Source: Balneolaceae bacterium (lineage in GTDB: Bacteria > Bacteroidota > Rhodothermia > Balneolales > Balneolaceae). From it: 42,497 nt of DNA. Location of the stretch: contig JAFGWN010000048.1 in assembly GCA_016937115.1 (NCBI GenBank), positions 1-42,497 of the forward strand. The letters run 5' to 3'. The notes under the pieces were generated by a model. That model was not told where the DNA came from. It was given only the letters and a program-made list of their open reading frames with translations, and made no database searches. A program made the translations under genes and the position numbers. Within the stretch, counting starts at the first letter, position 1. The number at the start of each line of letters is the position of its first letter. This document shows positions 23,096 to 37,058 of this stretch, piece after piece.

Positions 23096-23797
23096 TTGAG
23101 ACCGAAACACACCATTTTACTTGTTGAAGATGAAAAGGAGCCAGCTGAAATGCTGTCCAATTTTTTAGAAATGAATGATTATCGCGTGCTGGTAGCTAAT
23201 GAAGGAAATCGGGCACAGGAGTTAATCGATGAAGAAGCCGGTGCTATTCACCTTGCCATTCTTGATATTATGGTTCCGAATATAGATGGTAAAGAACTAT
23301 GCAAACGTATTCGCCGGCACCCGGTGCTGAATGATATTCCCGTTATATTTTTGACTGCCAGGGATCAGGAACAGGACGAAATTGAAGGTTTGGAGCTTGG
23401 GGCAGATGACTACATTTCCAAGCCGGCCAGCCTCGATCTGGTGAAAACGCATGTAGAAACACTGCTGCGCCGCCAAAATCCACAAAATGCCAACTGGCTG
23501 CAGTATGGTGACGCTTATCTCGATACCGATGGCAAGGAGTTGTATATAAACGACAAAAAAGTAGAACTTACCTCAACCGAATATAGCTTAATTGAGTTGT
23601 TATTTAAGAGCCCGAAGCAGGTGTTTAGCCGGCAGCAGATTCTGGAGCATATCACCGAAGAAGGTCGTTTTGTATTTGATCGTACCGTTGATGTGCACAT
23701 CAAGAATTTGCGGCTCAAAATGGGTGATGCCGGGGAAATCATAAAAACATATCGCGGTATCGGCTACGGAGTGAATCGAGAGATCGCAAAAGTCTAA
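23096..23797 (+). CDS. OmpR-family response regulator
   Basis: HTILLVEDEKEPAEML, LDIMVPNIDGKELC, LTARDQEQDEIEGLELGADDYISKPAS, winged helix; TTG start. Confidence 0.95.
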   Translation: MRPKHTILLVEDEKEPAEMLSNFLEMNDYRVLVANEGNRAQELIDEEAGAIHLAILDIMVPNIDGKELCKRIRRHPVLNDIPVIFLTARDQEQDEIEGLELGADDYISKPASLDLVKTHVETLLRRQNPQNANWLQYGDAYLDTDGKELYINDKKVELTSTEYSLIELLFKSPKQVFSRQQILEHITEEGRFVFDRTVDVHIKNLRLKMGDAGEIIKTYRGIGYGVNREIAKV

Positions 23798-23805
23798 ATA
23801 AATAT

Positions 23806-23882
23806 GTCATCCTGTCCGGAATGCTTTCGGGATCAGGATCTATTATATTGTATGCCGGAACAAGTTCGGCAGGGCATTAATT
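23806..23882. repeat. Degenerate intergenic palindromic repeat in the response regulator/kinase gap
   Basis: gtcatcctgtccggaatgctttcgggatcaggatct...tgccggaacaagttcggcag. Confidence 0.55.
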
Positions 23883-23889
23883 TTCCCAT

Positions 23890-25278
23890 ATGAAAATTCG
23901 TTCAAAACTGGCGTGGACATTCATCATTCTTTTGTTTTTTGGAATTACTTCCATCAGCAGTTATTCTATCCTGTTTATCCGTGATTACATGCTGGAGCAG
24001 GGTCGTGAGGAGCTGCAAAAAGATACCCGCTGGCTTTCAGTTACAATTTCAAACCTTCCACAGGATGGCCAATTCGAGGCTCATTTCAATGATGTAGCCG
24101 AAACATCCGGCTATGATTTGGCGCTGTACGATTCTTCCGGGGCGCTTGTAAATTTCTATCCAGATACTATTAGCTTTTCGGCGTATTTGCCTGACGACAC
24201 GCAAGAGATATTAAAATCTCGCGAAGAAATACCCTGGATTCCACGCAACGAAGATTCAGAAAAACTGATTAGCTATATCTATCTGTCGCAAAGTACAAAT
24301 AATGCGGCGTTCATTCGTCTCAGTCAGTATAAGGATGAAGTCTACGAACCCATCAAGACCATTCGCTGGATTATCTATTACGGTATGTTTATTTCTATCG
24401 GGCTGGTGATAATTGTGAGCGTGTGGATGGCGCGTTACCTCACCAAGCCGATTACACAAATTAAAAATGCAGCCCAGAATATTGCCGACGGCGATGTGGA
24501 TCAGCAGATTGACCTGAACCGCAATGACGAGTTTGGCACGCTGGCCGATTCGCTTAACCAGATGGCAATGAAACTCCGCGAGGATACCGAACAAATCAAG
24601 CGATACGCCGAGCGTCAGCGCCAGTTTTTTGCCGATATCACCCACGAACTGCGCAACCCGTTGCATACTATATCGGCTTCGCTGGAAATGCTGGAGCTGG
24701 ATGGAATTTCAGAAGAAAAGCGGCAGCAGTATCGCAAAAATGCCAGAAGTCAGGTAGAGCGGATCAACCGTTTGTTCAAAGATTTGGTAACCTTGCAGCG
24801 GTATGATTCGGATGAATACTTTATTGAAAAGCAGACCTTTGATCTGGCGACCATCAGCGAGCACATGCGAGAGTGGCATATCGAAAAAGCACACGAAAAA
24901 GGACTTTCGCTACAGGTTGACAAGAAATCGTGCAAAGCAGTAGGCGACCCTGGAAAAATAGAACAGGTGATAGACAATCTGATTTCTAATGCGATTAAAT
25001 ATACTAATGAAGGAAGCGTATTCTTAAAATATTACCAAAAGGGTGGCCAGGTTGAGGTTAAGGTTGAAGATACGGGCATTGGTATTTCAGAAGAACATCT
25101 TGAGTGGTTGTTCGATCGTTTTTATCGAACGGATAAGGCACGTTCGCGCGACAAAGGGGGTACGGGGCTCGGCTTGGCGGTCGTAAAGAGTATCTTAAAC
25201 GCTCATGGCACGGATATTGAAGTGGAAAGCACACCCGGGAAGGGCTCCGTTTTTCGGTTCCGGCTTCCAACTGCTTGA
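23890..25278 (+). CDS. HAMP-domain sensor histidine kinase
   Basis: Two TM segments, HAMP, ADITHELRNPLHTI H-box, DNLISNAIKYTNEG, VEDTGIGI, GGTGLGLAVVK. Confidence 0.95.
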   Translation: MKIRSKLAWTFIILLFFGITSISSYSILFIRDYMLEQGREELQKDTRWLSVTISNLPQDGQFEAHFNDVAETSGYDLALYDSSGALVNFYPDTISFSAYLPDDTQEILKSREEIPWIPRNEDSEKLISYIYLSQSTNNAAFIRLSQYKDEVYEPIKTIRWIIYYGMFISIGLVIIVSVWMARYLTKPITQIKNAAQNIADGDVDQQIDLNRNDEFGTLADSLNQMAMKLREDTEQIKRYAERQRQFFADITHELRNPLHTISASLEMLELDGISEEKRQQYRKNARSQVERINRLFKDLVTLQRYDSDEYFIEKQTFDLATISEHMREWHIEKAHEKGLSLQVDKKSCKAVGDPGKIEQVIDNLISNAIKYTNEGSVFLKYYQKGGQVEVKVEDTGIGISEEHLEWLFDRFYRTDKARSRDKGGTGLGLAVVKSILNAHGTDIEVESTPGKGSVFRFRLPTA

Positions 25279-25394: not shown

Positions 25395-26507
25395 ATGCGC
25401 ATCGGCGTTGTACTTATGAACCTGGGGGGACCGAATCGCGAAGAATATGTCCGCCCGTTTTTGAAAAACCTGTTCCAGGATGAGGATATCATTAAAATGG
25501 GTGGCGGCGTGTTGCAAAACACATTTGCAAAGATTATTGCCAAATTTCGGGCACCAAGCGTTGCAGAAGATTACAAGGAGATAAACGGCTGCCCAAAGGG
25601 ATGCATGGGCAACAAACACTGCATCAACCGGGAAGAAAAGCATGTTTCGGAGTGCTGTTCACCGATCAACAGTTTGACAGAGCGCCAACGGCGCGCGCTT
25701 GAAAAGAAATTGGAGGGCGACCTTTCTGAACATGAAGTGAAGGTTTATACCTGCATGCGCTACTGGATTCCCTTTGCCGATACTACAATGCAAGATATGG
25801 TGGATGATGGAATTACGCATGCGGTGATGGTGCCGCTCTACCCGCAATTTTCATGGACGACTACCGGGAGCGGATTTCGCGATTGGGAAACGCAGCGTAA
25901 AAAGCGGTTTGGTGATGAAGCGCCCTGGAAAGAGTTTCACGTGAAGAACTATCACCTCAACCAAAGGTATCTGAATGCGCTGAACAGCCGTATCGACGAA
26001 GCGCTGGAGCAGATGGATGAAGAAACGCGGAGCAAGACACACCTTATTTTTAGTGCACACGGCACGCCAAAGCTGGAAGTGCGCAGCGGTGATCCATATA
26101 CGACCGAAATCAAGGAAACGATGGAAGCCATTATGGATATGCGCGGGCGTGATGAATCATACTGGTTGGGCTATCAATCAAAAGTGGGTCCCCAGAAATG
26201 GACACAGCCGAATACCGCTGAACTGGTAGAACGCCACCTGCAGTATGGCATCAAAAACTTCCTGATGATTCCAATTGCTTTTGTCACTGATCATATTGAA
26301 ACGCTGTACGAACTTAGCATTGAGCTGAAAGAAGACCTGGAGGAAGAAGGATATGCGTTTGAAAGCCTTGAAGTGACGGAAGGCATCAACGATCACCCCG
26401 AATACATCACCGCCCTGGCCGACGAAGTAAAAAAACGGCTGCCGGCTGATGGAATTGCCGAATTGGAAACTGAACCTGAAGAACCTAAAATGGTAAAATC
26501 TGAGTGA
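25395..26507 (+). CDS. hemH: Ferrochelatase with an unusual Cys-rich insertion
   Basis: GVVLMNLGGPNREEYVRPFLKNLF, VPLYPQFSWTTTGS, LIFSAHGTP, YWLGYQSKVGPQKW, IPIAFVTDHIETLYEL. Confidence 0.95.
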   Translation: MRIGVVLMNLGGPNREEYVRPFLKNLFQDEDIIKMGGGVLQNTFAKIIAKFRAPSVAEDYKEINGCPKGCMGNKHCINREEKHVSECCSPINSLTERQRRALEKKLEGDLSEHEVKVYTCMRYWIPFADTTMQDMVDDGITHAVMVPLYPQFSWTTTGSGFRDWETQRKKRFGDEAPWKEFHVKNYHLNQRYLNALNSRIDEALEQMDEETRSKTHLIFSAHGTPKLEVRSGDPYTTEIKETMEAIMDMRGRDESYWLGYQSKVGPQKWTQPNTAELVERHLQYGIKNFLMIPIAFVTDHIETLYELSIELKEDLEEEGYAFESLEVTEGINDHPEYITALADEVKKRLPADGIAELETEPEEPKMVKSE

Positions 26508-27772
26508 TGAACCGAAGCTGTCCGACGATTGACACATTTTGTATAGTGGGCGTGAACCATTGGGAAGCGACGATAGAAGTACGCGAGAAATTCAGTATTT
26601 CAGATGCTCAAAAAGAAGCCCTGATTGAAGGCGCAAAGCGCGAAGGTATTCGCAGTCTGTTTGTGATTTCTACCTGCAACCGCACCGAAATTGTAGCACA
26701 GGATGCCTCCCCCCGGGAACTTATTCGCCTGCTGATTACCTACTCCGATGCTTCCTTGGATGAGTTTCATACCTATGGGTTTGAAAAGGAAGGTGAGAAA
26801 GCCATACAGCATTTATTCCAGGTTACGGTCGGACTTGATTCCCAAATTTTAGGTGACCTGCAAATTGTAAAACAGGTAAAGGAAGGGTACGTACTGGCCT
26901 CTGAAATGAATGCGGTAGACGGTGAACTGCACCGCTTGATGCAGCATGTGTTCCGGGCGCACAAGCGTTCACGGAATGAAACATCGCTGGGTGAAGGAGC
27001 CGCAACAACGGCTTATGCTGCCGTTCGGTTTGCAACCAACACGTTTGATAATCTTTCGGATAAAAACATTCTGCTGATTGGCACCGGAAAAATCGGCAAG
27101 GTGACGTGCAAAAACCTGGTGAGTCTTGGAGCCAAGAAAGTTACATTAATGAACCGTACACGCGATCGGGCCGAGTTTGTGGCCGACCGGTTCAATCTTG
27201 AAGTTGCGGGCATGGATGATATGCCGGCACAAATTGCCGATGCAGATTTAGTTATTGTAGCCACCGGCGCGACTGATGCCATCATCACGATGGAACACAT
27301 GCAGCCTTCCATTGCCGATGGTTGTTATAAAGTGATGCTCGACTTATCGGTGCCGCGGAATATCGATCCCGATGTGGGTGAACTTGATTTTGTAGATGTA
27401 GCCAACATGGATTATTTGACCGACGTGACGGATGAGGCTTATCAGAAGCGTGAGGAGAATATTCCCCTCGTGAAAAAGATCATTGAAGACGAATTGATTG
27501 GCTACAAAAACTGGCTCAGCACCCAAAAAGTAGTGCCGACCATTAAAGCGCTGACCCAGAAGTTTGATGATATCCGCGAAGATGAATTCGACTTTTTTAA
27601 GAATAAGATAAAGGATTCTGATCGGGATAAAGTTGAGAATCTGACGCGGCGTATCGTCAATAAAATTGCAGCTTATTCGATTGAACATCTGCGCGACCAT
27701 CATGAATCGGAGCAGGTAACGCAGGTGGTGAATGAGATGTTTAAGTTGGAAACGCATTCCTCTGATGAGTGA
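26507..27772 (+). CDS. hemA: Glutamyl-tRNA reductase
   Basis: FVISTCNRTEIVA, GLDSQILGDLQIVKQVKEGY, LLIGTGKIGKVTCKNL, DLSVPRNIDP; TGATG junction with hemH. Confidence 0.96.
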   Translation: MNRSCPTIDTFCIVGVNHWEATIEVREKFSISDAQKEALIEGAKREGIRSLFVISTCNRTEIVAQDASPRELIRLLITYSDASLDEFHTYGFEKEGEKAIQHLFQVTVGLDSQILGDLQIVKQVKEGYVLASEMNAVDGELHRLMQHVFRAHKRSRNETSLGEGAATTAYAAVRFATNTFDNLSDKNILLIGTGKIGKVTCKNLVSLGAKKVTLMNRTRDRAEFVADRFNLEVAGMDDMPAQIADADLVIVATGATDAIITMEHMQPSIADGCYKVMLDLSVPRNIDPDVGELDFVDVANMDYLTDVTDEAYQKREENIPLVKKIIEDELIGYKNWLSTQKVVPTIKALTQKFDDIREDEFDFFKNKIKDSDRDKVENLTRRIVNKIAAYSIEHLRDHHESEQVTQVVNEMFKLETHSSDE

Positions 27773-32791: not shown

Positions 32792-34093
32792 ATGTTAGAA
32801 ACCAGCAAACAATTATTTGATCGCGCACAGCAGTTCATTCCCGGTGGAGTAAACTCTCCGGCGCGTGCGTTTAATTCAGTTGGGGGAAGCCCGGTATTTT
32901 TTGAGAAAGCAAAGGGCTCAATTTTGACTGATGTTGATGGCAAAGAATATATCGACTATGTGGGTTCATGGGGACCGATGATACTTGGTCATGCCTTTGA
33001 TCCGGTTATTGAAGCCGTGAAGAAGGCAGCTGAAAAATCGACCTCATTTGGGGCGCCAACCGAAATTGAGATTAAGATGGCCGAGTTGGTGAGGCAGATG
33101 GTGCCCGGCGTGGATAAGATTCGTATGGTGAATTCCGGGACCGAGGCCTGTATGAGTGCCATTCGGGTTGCCCGCGGATATACCGGAAAAGACAAGATTA
33201 TTAAGTTTGGAGGGAATTACCACGGCCATGGCGATTCCTTTTTGATCAAGGCCGGAAGTGGTGCGCTCACACTCGGCTCACCCGACAGCCCGGGTGTTAC
33301 TGAGGGGACAGCCAAAGATACGCTAACCGCTCATTTCAATGACCTGAATTCTGTAAAGAAATTACTTAACGAATATCGGGATGAAGTGGCGGCAATTATC
33401 GTGGAACCGGTCGCCGGCAATATGGGATGCATTCCTCCGAAGTCTGGGTTCTTGCAGGGGCTTCGCGAACTGTGTGATGCCCACGATGCGGTCCTCATTT
33501 TTGATGAGGTGATGACTGGTTTTCGCGTGGCAAAGGGCGGTGCTCAGGAACGCTACGGCGTGACCGCCGACTTGGTAACCTACGGCAAAATTATCGGTGC
33601 CGGACTGCCGGTTGGTGCGTTTGGGGGCAGGAAGGAGGTGATGGATGTGGTTTCACCTGTGGGCCCTGTGTATCAGGCGGGTACACTTTCGGGTAATCCA
33701 CTTGCGATGGCGGCAGGATTTACGTTGCTCACCGAACTGCAGGAGAATCCCCGGCATTATGATGAACTTGAAGCGAAAGCTGCGCATCTGCTTAATGGAC
33801 TCAACCAGGTATTTGAATCGCATCATGTACCGGTATCGATTAATCAGGTGGGTTCTATGATAAGCGTGTTCTTTACCGATCAGGAAGTCACCGATTTCGC
33901 GACAGCAAATACTACTGATAAAGAATTATTTAAGGCATTTTTCCATGGCATGTTGGAACGCGGTATTTACCTGCCACCATCGCCCTTTGAGTCGTGGTTC
34001 CTGGCCAATACGCTTACAAAAGAACAGCTGAATCAGACCATAGATATGGCCGATAAAGTGATGCAAGAAGTAACCCGCAGTAAGGACGGTTAG
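32792..34093 (+). CDS. hemL: Glutamate-1-semialdehyde 2,1-aminomutase
   Basis: [72 protein letters not shown]. Confidence 0.97.
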
Positions 34094-36401: not shown

Positions 36402-37058
36402 TCATGATTCAAACCCAATCTCTTTGTGCGATCCGTCGCAAAATGGTTTGTTATCGGACGCTCCGCAACGGCACAGCGCTATATTTTTGGAGCACTGCTG
36501 TGGTTCACTTACTTCCGAGTAAATTTCGTAGGAACCGTCTAAAAGTGCGGGTCCGTTCTTCATCAGTTTTATAACCAGTTTGTCGGGGGTATCGTTTTTC
36601 TCCTTTTCTTTTAATGATTCCGCGTTGATCGCTGCAGAAGCTTCAAACTCACTATTTACATGGGTATTATCACAAGCAGGCTTATTGGCCGAGAGGCCGC
36701 ACCGGCAGAGGGCAAAGCGAGTGTCTGTCAGAACAACGTTATTCTCGTGATCCTGTACTTCAATATCACCCCGGAAATATACGGGGCCATCAGGCACAAC
36801 ATTTATAGTGTTTTTATCCGGCGGTTGTTCTTTTTTGTTTTTTGTTTTCAGTCGGTAGTGTAAAGCACCGGTAGGACAGCGTTCAACAACATCAACAATC
36901 TCTTCAATAGTAGCATTATCCGGCTGTATCCATGGGCGTTTTTCGGGATTAAATACAGCCCGCAGACCCTTAACACATTCCCTCGCGTGTATGCAACGAT
37001 TCAAATCATACTGAATTTCGATGTTGTTACTTTCGTACCTATGAATTTTTTCTTCCAT
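36402..37058 (-). CDS. Fer4_19 plus two CDGSH-type iron-sulfur domains
   Basis: RCIHARECVKG...VVERCPTGALHYRL; ALCRCGLSANKPACDNTHVNSEF and ALCRCGASDNKPFCDGSHKEIGF. Confidence 0.93.
   Translation of the reverse strand: MEEKIHRYESNNIEIQYDLNRCIHARECVKGLRAVFNPEKRPWIQPDNATIEEIVDVVERCPTGALHYRLKTKNKKEQPPDKNTINVVPDGPVYFRGDIEVQDHENNVVLTDTRFALCRCGLSANKPACDNTHVNSEFEASAAINAESLKEKEKNDTPDKLVIKLMKNGPALLDGSYEIYSEVSEPQQCSKNIALCRCGASDNKPFCDGSHKEIGFES

Follow-up and report, generated by a model that had tools for sequence, protein, structure and literature searches.

A conserved cysteine-rich insertion at the active-site mouth of Balneolales ferrochelatases, a probable third site for an Fe-S cluster

Introduction

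What the [2Fe-2S] cluster does in ferrochelatases has been asked for decades. The Cys residues that hold it are located in one of two places, either in an internal insertion, as in Myxococcus xanthus and 43 of 46 Bacteroidetes, or at the C-terminus (Weerth et al. 2021, PMC8529089). According to the same work, the characterised Cys-rich segments harbour [2Fe-2S] clusters, and in the characterised insertion enzymes both residues of the vicinal CC are cluster ligands. In the legend of its Figure 3C the insertion is assigned to the CXC grouping region, and Cys-to-Ser variants of the tested bacterial enzymes that lose the cluster remain active (PMC8529089). In human ferrochelatase S130 and Y123 bind propionate 6 and R115 binds propionate 7; G129-S130-P131 form part of the alpha3-alpha4 loop, and closure of the active-site mouth may involve S130 (PMC9133952). 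A search of the open-licence PMC literature for ferrochelatase in combination with Balneol* retrieved nothing.

Here we describe the ferrochelatase of a Balneolaceae bacterium with a Cys-rich insertion at another position, which we term the N-site. From sequence comparisons, we consider it likely that this insertion constitutes a third, independently evolved Fe-S site on bacterial ferrochelatases, most likely for a [2Fe-2S] cluster, at the active-site mouth.

Results

The hemH gene and its surroundings

The window, i.e. the whole stretch of 42,497 nucleotides that was analysed, stems from a metagenome-assembled genome (MAG) of Balneolaceae kinship. Among the best 80 loci in a scan of the genome collection, its closest named relatives were Fodinibius, Aliifodinibius and Rhodohalobacter. 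We take the host of the window to be a salt-loving bacterium. In profile searches the hemH product (Table 1) matches PF00762 with 312 bits (E 4.6e-93; curated cut-off 27) and TIGR00109 with 279.7 bits (E 3.4e-83; curated cut-off 124.6). The gene heads a tetrapyrrole gene run that continues with hemA, hemC, hemD, hemE, hemF, hemB and hemL up to position 34093, where the names hemA to hemL were read off the translations.

Genes for a response regulator and a histidine kinase (23096-25278) immediately precede hemH on its strand. At least 41 of the 80 named loci share this arrangement, many of the other loci ending early. The pair could sense heme, iron or redox state. Elsewhere in the window, a minus-strand frame (36402-37058) combines a ferredoxin-like N-terminal part with two CDGSH-like motifs (CRCG...CDNTH and CRCG...CDGSH), and its product is probably an Fe-S protein.

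HemY is encoded in the window's own genome (G000:C59, E 4.4e-96), and ChdC was detected in none of 39 genomes, of which the window's own is 87% complete and the relatives include complete ones. Since HemY is present and ChdC absent, the substrate of the enzyme is protoporphyrin IX. Several Balneolaceae genomes, some of them nearly complete (G004, G009, G012, G014, G015 and G020), lack a PF00762 ferrochelatase as well as a real HemY; in these the final part of the heme pathway seems to have been lost as a unit.

Table 1. Coordinates of hemH, its insertion, aligned functional residues and the adjoining gene in the window
Feature	Position	Strand	Basis
hemH, protoporphyrin ferrochelatase, 370 aa	25395..26507	+	PF00762, TIGR00109, AF2 model vs 1HRK
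R52 = human R115, propionate 7 ligand, upstream of insertion	25548..25550	+	alignment to human chain; invariant 160/160; role PMC9133952
Y60 = human Y123, propionate 6 ligand, just before insertion	25572..25574	+	alignment to human chain; invariant 160/160; role PMC9133952
N-site Cys-rich insertion, C66-X3-C70-X5-C76-X10-C87-C88	25590..25658	+	orthologue conservation, codon variation, phylum scan
S89 = human S130, propionate 6 ligand, active-site-mouth loop, just after insertion	25659..25661	+	phmmer alignment; invariant 160/160
H222 = catalytic His, human H263	26058..26060	+	alignment to human chain; invariant 160/160
hemA	26504..27772	+	start overlaps hemH end (ORF list); hemH-hemA-hemC order conserved in relatives

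Five invariant Cys residues in the insertion

An earlier note on this DNA had proposed that HemH carries, at 25584-25658 and in an uninterrupted frame, an insertion of about 25 residues with five Cys and two His. The open reading frame is indeed unbroken, and the span encloses all five motif Cys codons. The insertion is real, but its size needs correction: 25 residues instead of 3 lie between I63 and S89, i.e. 22 have been added. When HemH sequences were aligned, as the note had advised, all five Cys proved invariant in every one of 79 distinct orthologues (from Balneolales and one MAG, gathered from a scan of GTDB genomes plus further loci). The two His, on the other hand, do not belong to the motif. 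H75 is replaced by Tyr in 34 of the 79 proteins and position 83 is His in only one, and His ligands in the insertion were thus rejected.

The Cys residues of the window HemH are located at positions 66, 70, 76, 87, 88 and 120; with random placement, five of six would fall inside 23 residues with P ~3e-4. C120, the sole Cys outside the motif, is Ala in 29 of the 79 relatives. All five motif Cys had already been kept in a first set of 26 sequences from five families, including that of the window, and in each of the 79 N-site proteins I63 and S89 enclose exactly 25 residues, with identical Cys spacing. Both TGT and TGC are used at each of the five Cys positions, and the third base varies in all 26 codons of the insertion stretch. 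Cys residues that stay invariant while their codons drift point to strong purifying selection on the residues rather than chance. Besides the Cys, G69, G72 and S85 are invariant within the insertion, and N78 is nearly so. As the motif is present in cultured isolates as well as in MAGs in the scan of the collection, it is not an assembly artefact.

The insertion conforms to the published scan pattern CX(1,11)CX(1,11)C (PMC8529089), with spacings of 3, 5 and 10. No Pfam match and no known Fe-S domain were found in it, and its one PDB match, an ice recrystallization inhibition protein (E 0.06), was taken as chance. A heme regulatory motif (Cys-Pro, C66-P67) as the core of the motif was also rejected, for position 67 is Thr in 9 and Ala in 1 of the 79 proteins.

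Location of the insertion in the enzyme

Residues were numbered by alignment to the human chain, in which query residue 89 equals chain residue 66 of 2qd3 and human residue 130 (offset 64, which H263 and C196 confirm). The AF2 model of the window HemH has a mean pLDDT of 88.5 (about 79-84 in the insertion), and its best match among solved structures is human ferrochelatase 1HRK (TM 0.81-0.83). In the model, helices 38-63 and 90-109 flank the insertion. Taken together, the alignment and the flanking helices place the insertion in a loop between two invariant substrate ligands. The suggestion that it lies beside a substrate-proximal segment is thereby substantiated, with the porphyrin 6-propionate ligands Y60 and S89 on either side. 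The human cluster ligand C196 aligns with W154 of the window HemH, a position that is never Cys in the N-site group. The window HemH has no Cys after residue 120, hence neither the C-terminal Cys triplet nor the C196 equivalent.

Distribution and phylogeny of ferrochelatase Cys motifs

In the Bacteroidia proteins and in a Caballeronia protein (L227) a Cys-rich insertion directly follows the catalytic His, e.g. HGIPERHIRKTDITKSHCKIDGSCCNTPSPAHEFCYRHQ, and their N-site is without such a motif. The alphaproteobacterial protein L228 carries a GDPYYRQC stretch in this mid-site, in agreement with the legend of Figure 3C in PMC8529089. The segment after H222 comprises 21 residues and no Cys in all 79 N-site proteins, compared with 40-44 residues and 4-6 Cys in mid-site proteins.

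Counting at least three Cys in the N or mid segment, or at least two in the C-terminal segment, as a motif, we sorted 160 distinct ferrochelatases into 79 with the N-site only, 46 with the mid-site only, 16 with the C-terminal site only (a loose class, of which 13 have the clear form with DPYCC) and 19 with none. Two motifs never occur together. When the insertion columns were left out of the tree calculation, the N-site proteins grouped in one clade with 100/100 support and the mid-site proteins in another group (90/56, 93% of bootstrap trees), separated by long, fully supported branches. Two long plasmid rows (L227 and L228) make nearby details of this tree uncertain, leaving the separation of the N-site group unaffected. 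The N-site group stands outside the single clade of insertion enzymes; its lineage falls among insertion-free proteins, including those of Rhodothermia with C-terminal motifs. From a phylogenetic perspective, the tree indicates a single origin of the N-site, within the Balneolales lineage and separate from the origins of the C-terminal and mid-protein sites.

A DNA pattern of the motif was detected in 28 of the 396 genomes of the phylum, all from one order, and the reversed control pattern in none of the 396. When the whole collection was scanned with CCSPIN[GSP]LT and P[VI]AFVTDH, the insertion occurred among the best 80 loci only in Balneolales and one MAG (L166); the scan covers these two spellings, and others may exist elsewhere. 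No Myxococcus record appeared among these 80 loci. Within Balneolaceae, 58 genomes divide into 24 with an N-site enzyme, 17 with a mid-site enzyme (a class assigned here from fetched loci), 17 with no ferrochelatase and none with both. All 41 genomes with a ferrochelatase thus have either the N-site or the mid-site Cys motif. In the mid-site genomes that were checked hemH adjoins hemY, which is not so in N-site genomes. The simplest reading is that one Cys-motif ferrochelatase was replaced by the other in Balneolaceae, a Cys motif being kept either way.

The mid-site enzyme of some Balneolaceae genera (L027-L049, the N-site loci being L001-L026) is Bacteroidia-like. A number of ferrochelatases from Rhodothermia and KSB1 (L171, L173, L175, L177-L182 and L086-L091) combine a DPYCC pair downstream of the catalytic His with an RCHQC-type motif at the C-terminus, so that each of the two may supply half of their cluster ligands. 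In four ferrochelatase-like proteins (L206-L209) the usual SAHG/SYHG catalytic motif is altered or missing.

Discussion

A putative cluster in the propionate-binding loop

Since C120 is the only Cys outside the insertion, Trp occupies the C196 position and C-terminal Cys are lacking, any cluster of this enzyme must sit in the insertion. The vicinal CC, which is common to the confirmed insertion class where both residues are ligands, favours a [2Fe-2S] cluster bound through C87, C88 and two others. We therefore propose that the insertion probably forms a metal-cluster site, most likely [2Fe-2S], in the alpha3-alpha4 loop of a protoporphyrin ferrochelatase, with the vicinal pair and two of C66, C70 and C76 as candidate ligands, and that this cluster would stand in for the C-terminal and mid-protein clusters of other ferrochelatases. 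The presence of five rather than four invariant Cys is not explained by a [2Fe-2S] site alone; the fifth might serve in exchange or folding.

Because the loop runs between the 6-propionate ligands Y60 and S89, the state of a cluster should affect the active-site mouth. Its assembly or loss would stiffen or loosen the mouth, and heme synthesis would thereby depend on the Fe-S or oxygen/NO status of the cell. That a cluster in the propionate-binding gate controls active-site opening, and so couples heme synthesis to Fe-S supply or to oxygen/NO, is nevertheless a doubtful extension of the proposal; it is speculative because the cluster-losing Cys-to-Ser variants of tested bacterial enzymes stay active (PMC8529089).

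The invariance of five Cys in a short loop could also reflect a structural Zn(II) site of four Cys that orders the loop and has no redox role. Gly-rich Cys knuckles such as CPxGC suit Zn sites, which speaks for this reading. Yet the characterised ferrochelatase Cys-rich segments named in the literature are all [2Fe-2S] (PMC8529089) and the confirmed Fe-S insertions also have a vicinal CC, so that we regard a Zn(II) site as unlikely. More improbable still is a metal-free thiol switch, in which C87-C88 and other Cys would form disulfides upon oxidation and close or open the mouth. The vicinal Cys, the odd number of conserved Cys and the vicinity of S89, the counterpart of the proposed mouth-closing residue S130 (PMC9133952), would agree with such a switch, but a group of five closely spaced Cys in a cytosolic enzyme is more suggestive of metal ligands.

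The loop might instead serve a partner protein as a surface for docking or iron delivery, its Cys binding Fe(II) transiently before insertion into the porphyrin. Its location at the mouth fits, and it has been noted in a review that iron-delivery partners could act on S130 (PMC9133952). However, a candidate partner is lacking, this many soft Cys ligands favour a cluster, and acidic or His ligands are not conserved in the insertion among the 79 N-site proteins, all of which makes iron delivery barely plausible. The least probable reading of all equates the insertion with the already described one of M. xanthus, merely aligned elsewhere. Both are Cys-rich, equal in length (22 residues) and contain a CC, where the site of the class is known here via Bacteroidia; from these, the Figure 3C legend and its agreement with L228, we infer that the M. 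xanthus insertion is the mid-site one. This identity had been our first reading and was dropped once the Bacteroidia insertion was found after the catalytic His, in proteins whose N-site is free of Cys. It is further at odds with the position given in the figure legend (PMC8529089) and with the separate N-site clade of the tree.

With a [2Fe-2S] cluster in the N-site as the preferred reading, a third separate origin at another position of the chain, in a lineage whose examined ferrochelatases each carry one motif but never two, suggests selection for having a cluster and not for its position. Being next to the porphyrin 6-propionate ligands, the N-site offers a direct test case for cluster action on the active-site mouth, and the enzyme is present in cultured, named hosts, Fodinibius and Rhodohalobacter. 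Gating by the cluster, if true, would provide the function that has long been sought for ferrochelatase clusters.

Comparison with known ferrochelatases

The novelty that the earlier note claimed for the site holds in part. Its position and lineage are new, since it differs from the C-terminal and mid-protein sites of PMC8529089, whereas Cys-rich ferrochelatase insertions with [2Fe-2S] clusters as such are already known. The redox, iron- or zinc-sensing or metal-delivery function that the note had considered for the element is hypothetical. The internal-insertion class of M. xanthus and most Bacteroidetes likewise has a Cys-rich insertion of about 22 residues with a vicinal CC, but there it follows the catalytic His (C..CC..C and then CYRHQ, as read in Bacteroidia). 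In the window HemH it precedes the SPIN motif, about 160 residues closer to the N-terminus, with five invariant Cys and in a separate clade. The C-terminal [2Fe-2S] class (human, Caulobacter, Rhodothermus, Salinibacter) includes the closest solved structure, the human enzyme, and the enzymes of the Rhodothermia relatives are roughly 40-48% identical to the window HemH and have the IGG/SPI core in common with it. Unlike this class, the window HemH is without a C-terminal Cys motif and has Trp at the human C196 position, whereas the Rhodothermia ferrochelatases possess DPYCC plus the C-terminal RCHQC. The coproporphyrin ferrochelatase CpfC of Bacillus agrees with the window HemH in core fold and catalytic His, but has no Cys insertion at the N-site, and the window genome encodes HemY instead, without ChdC.
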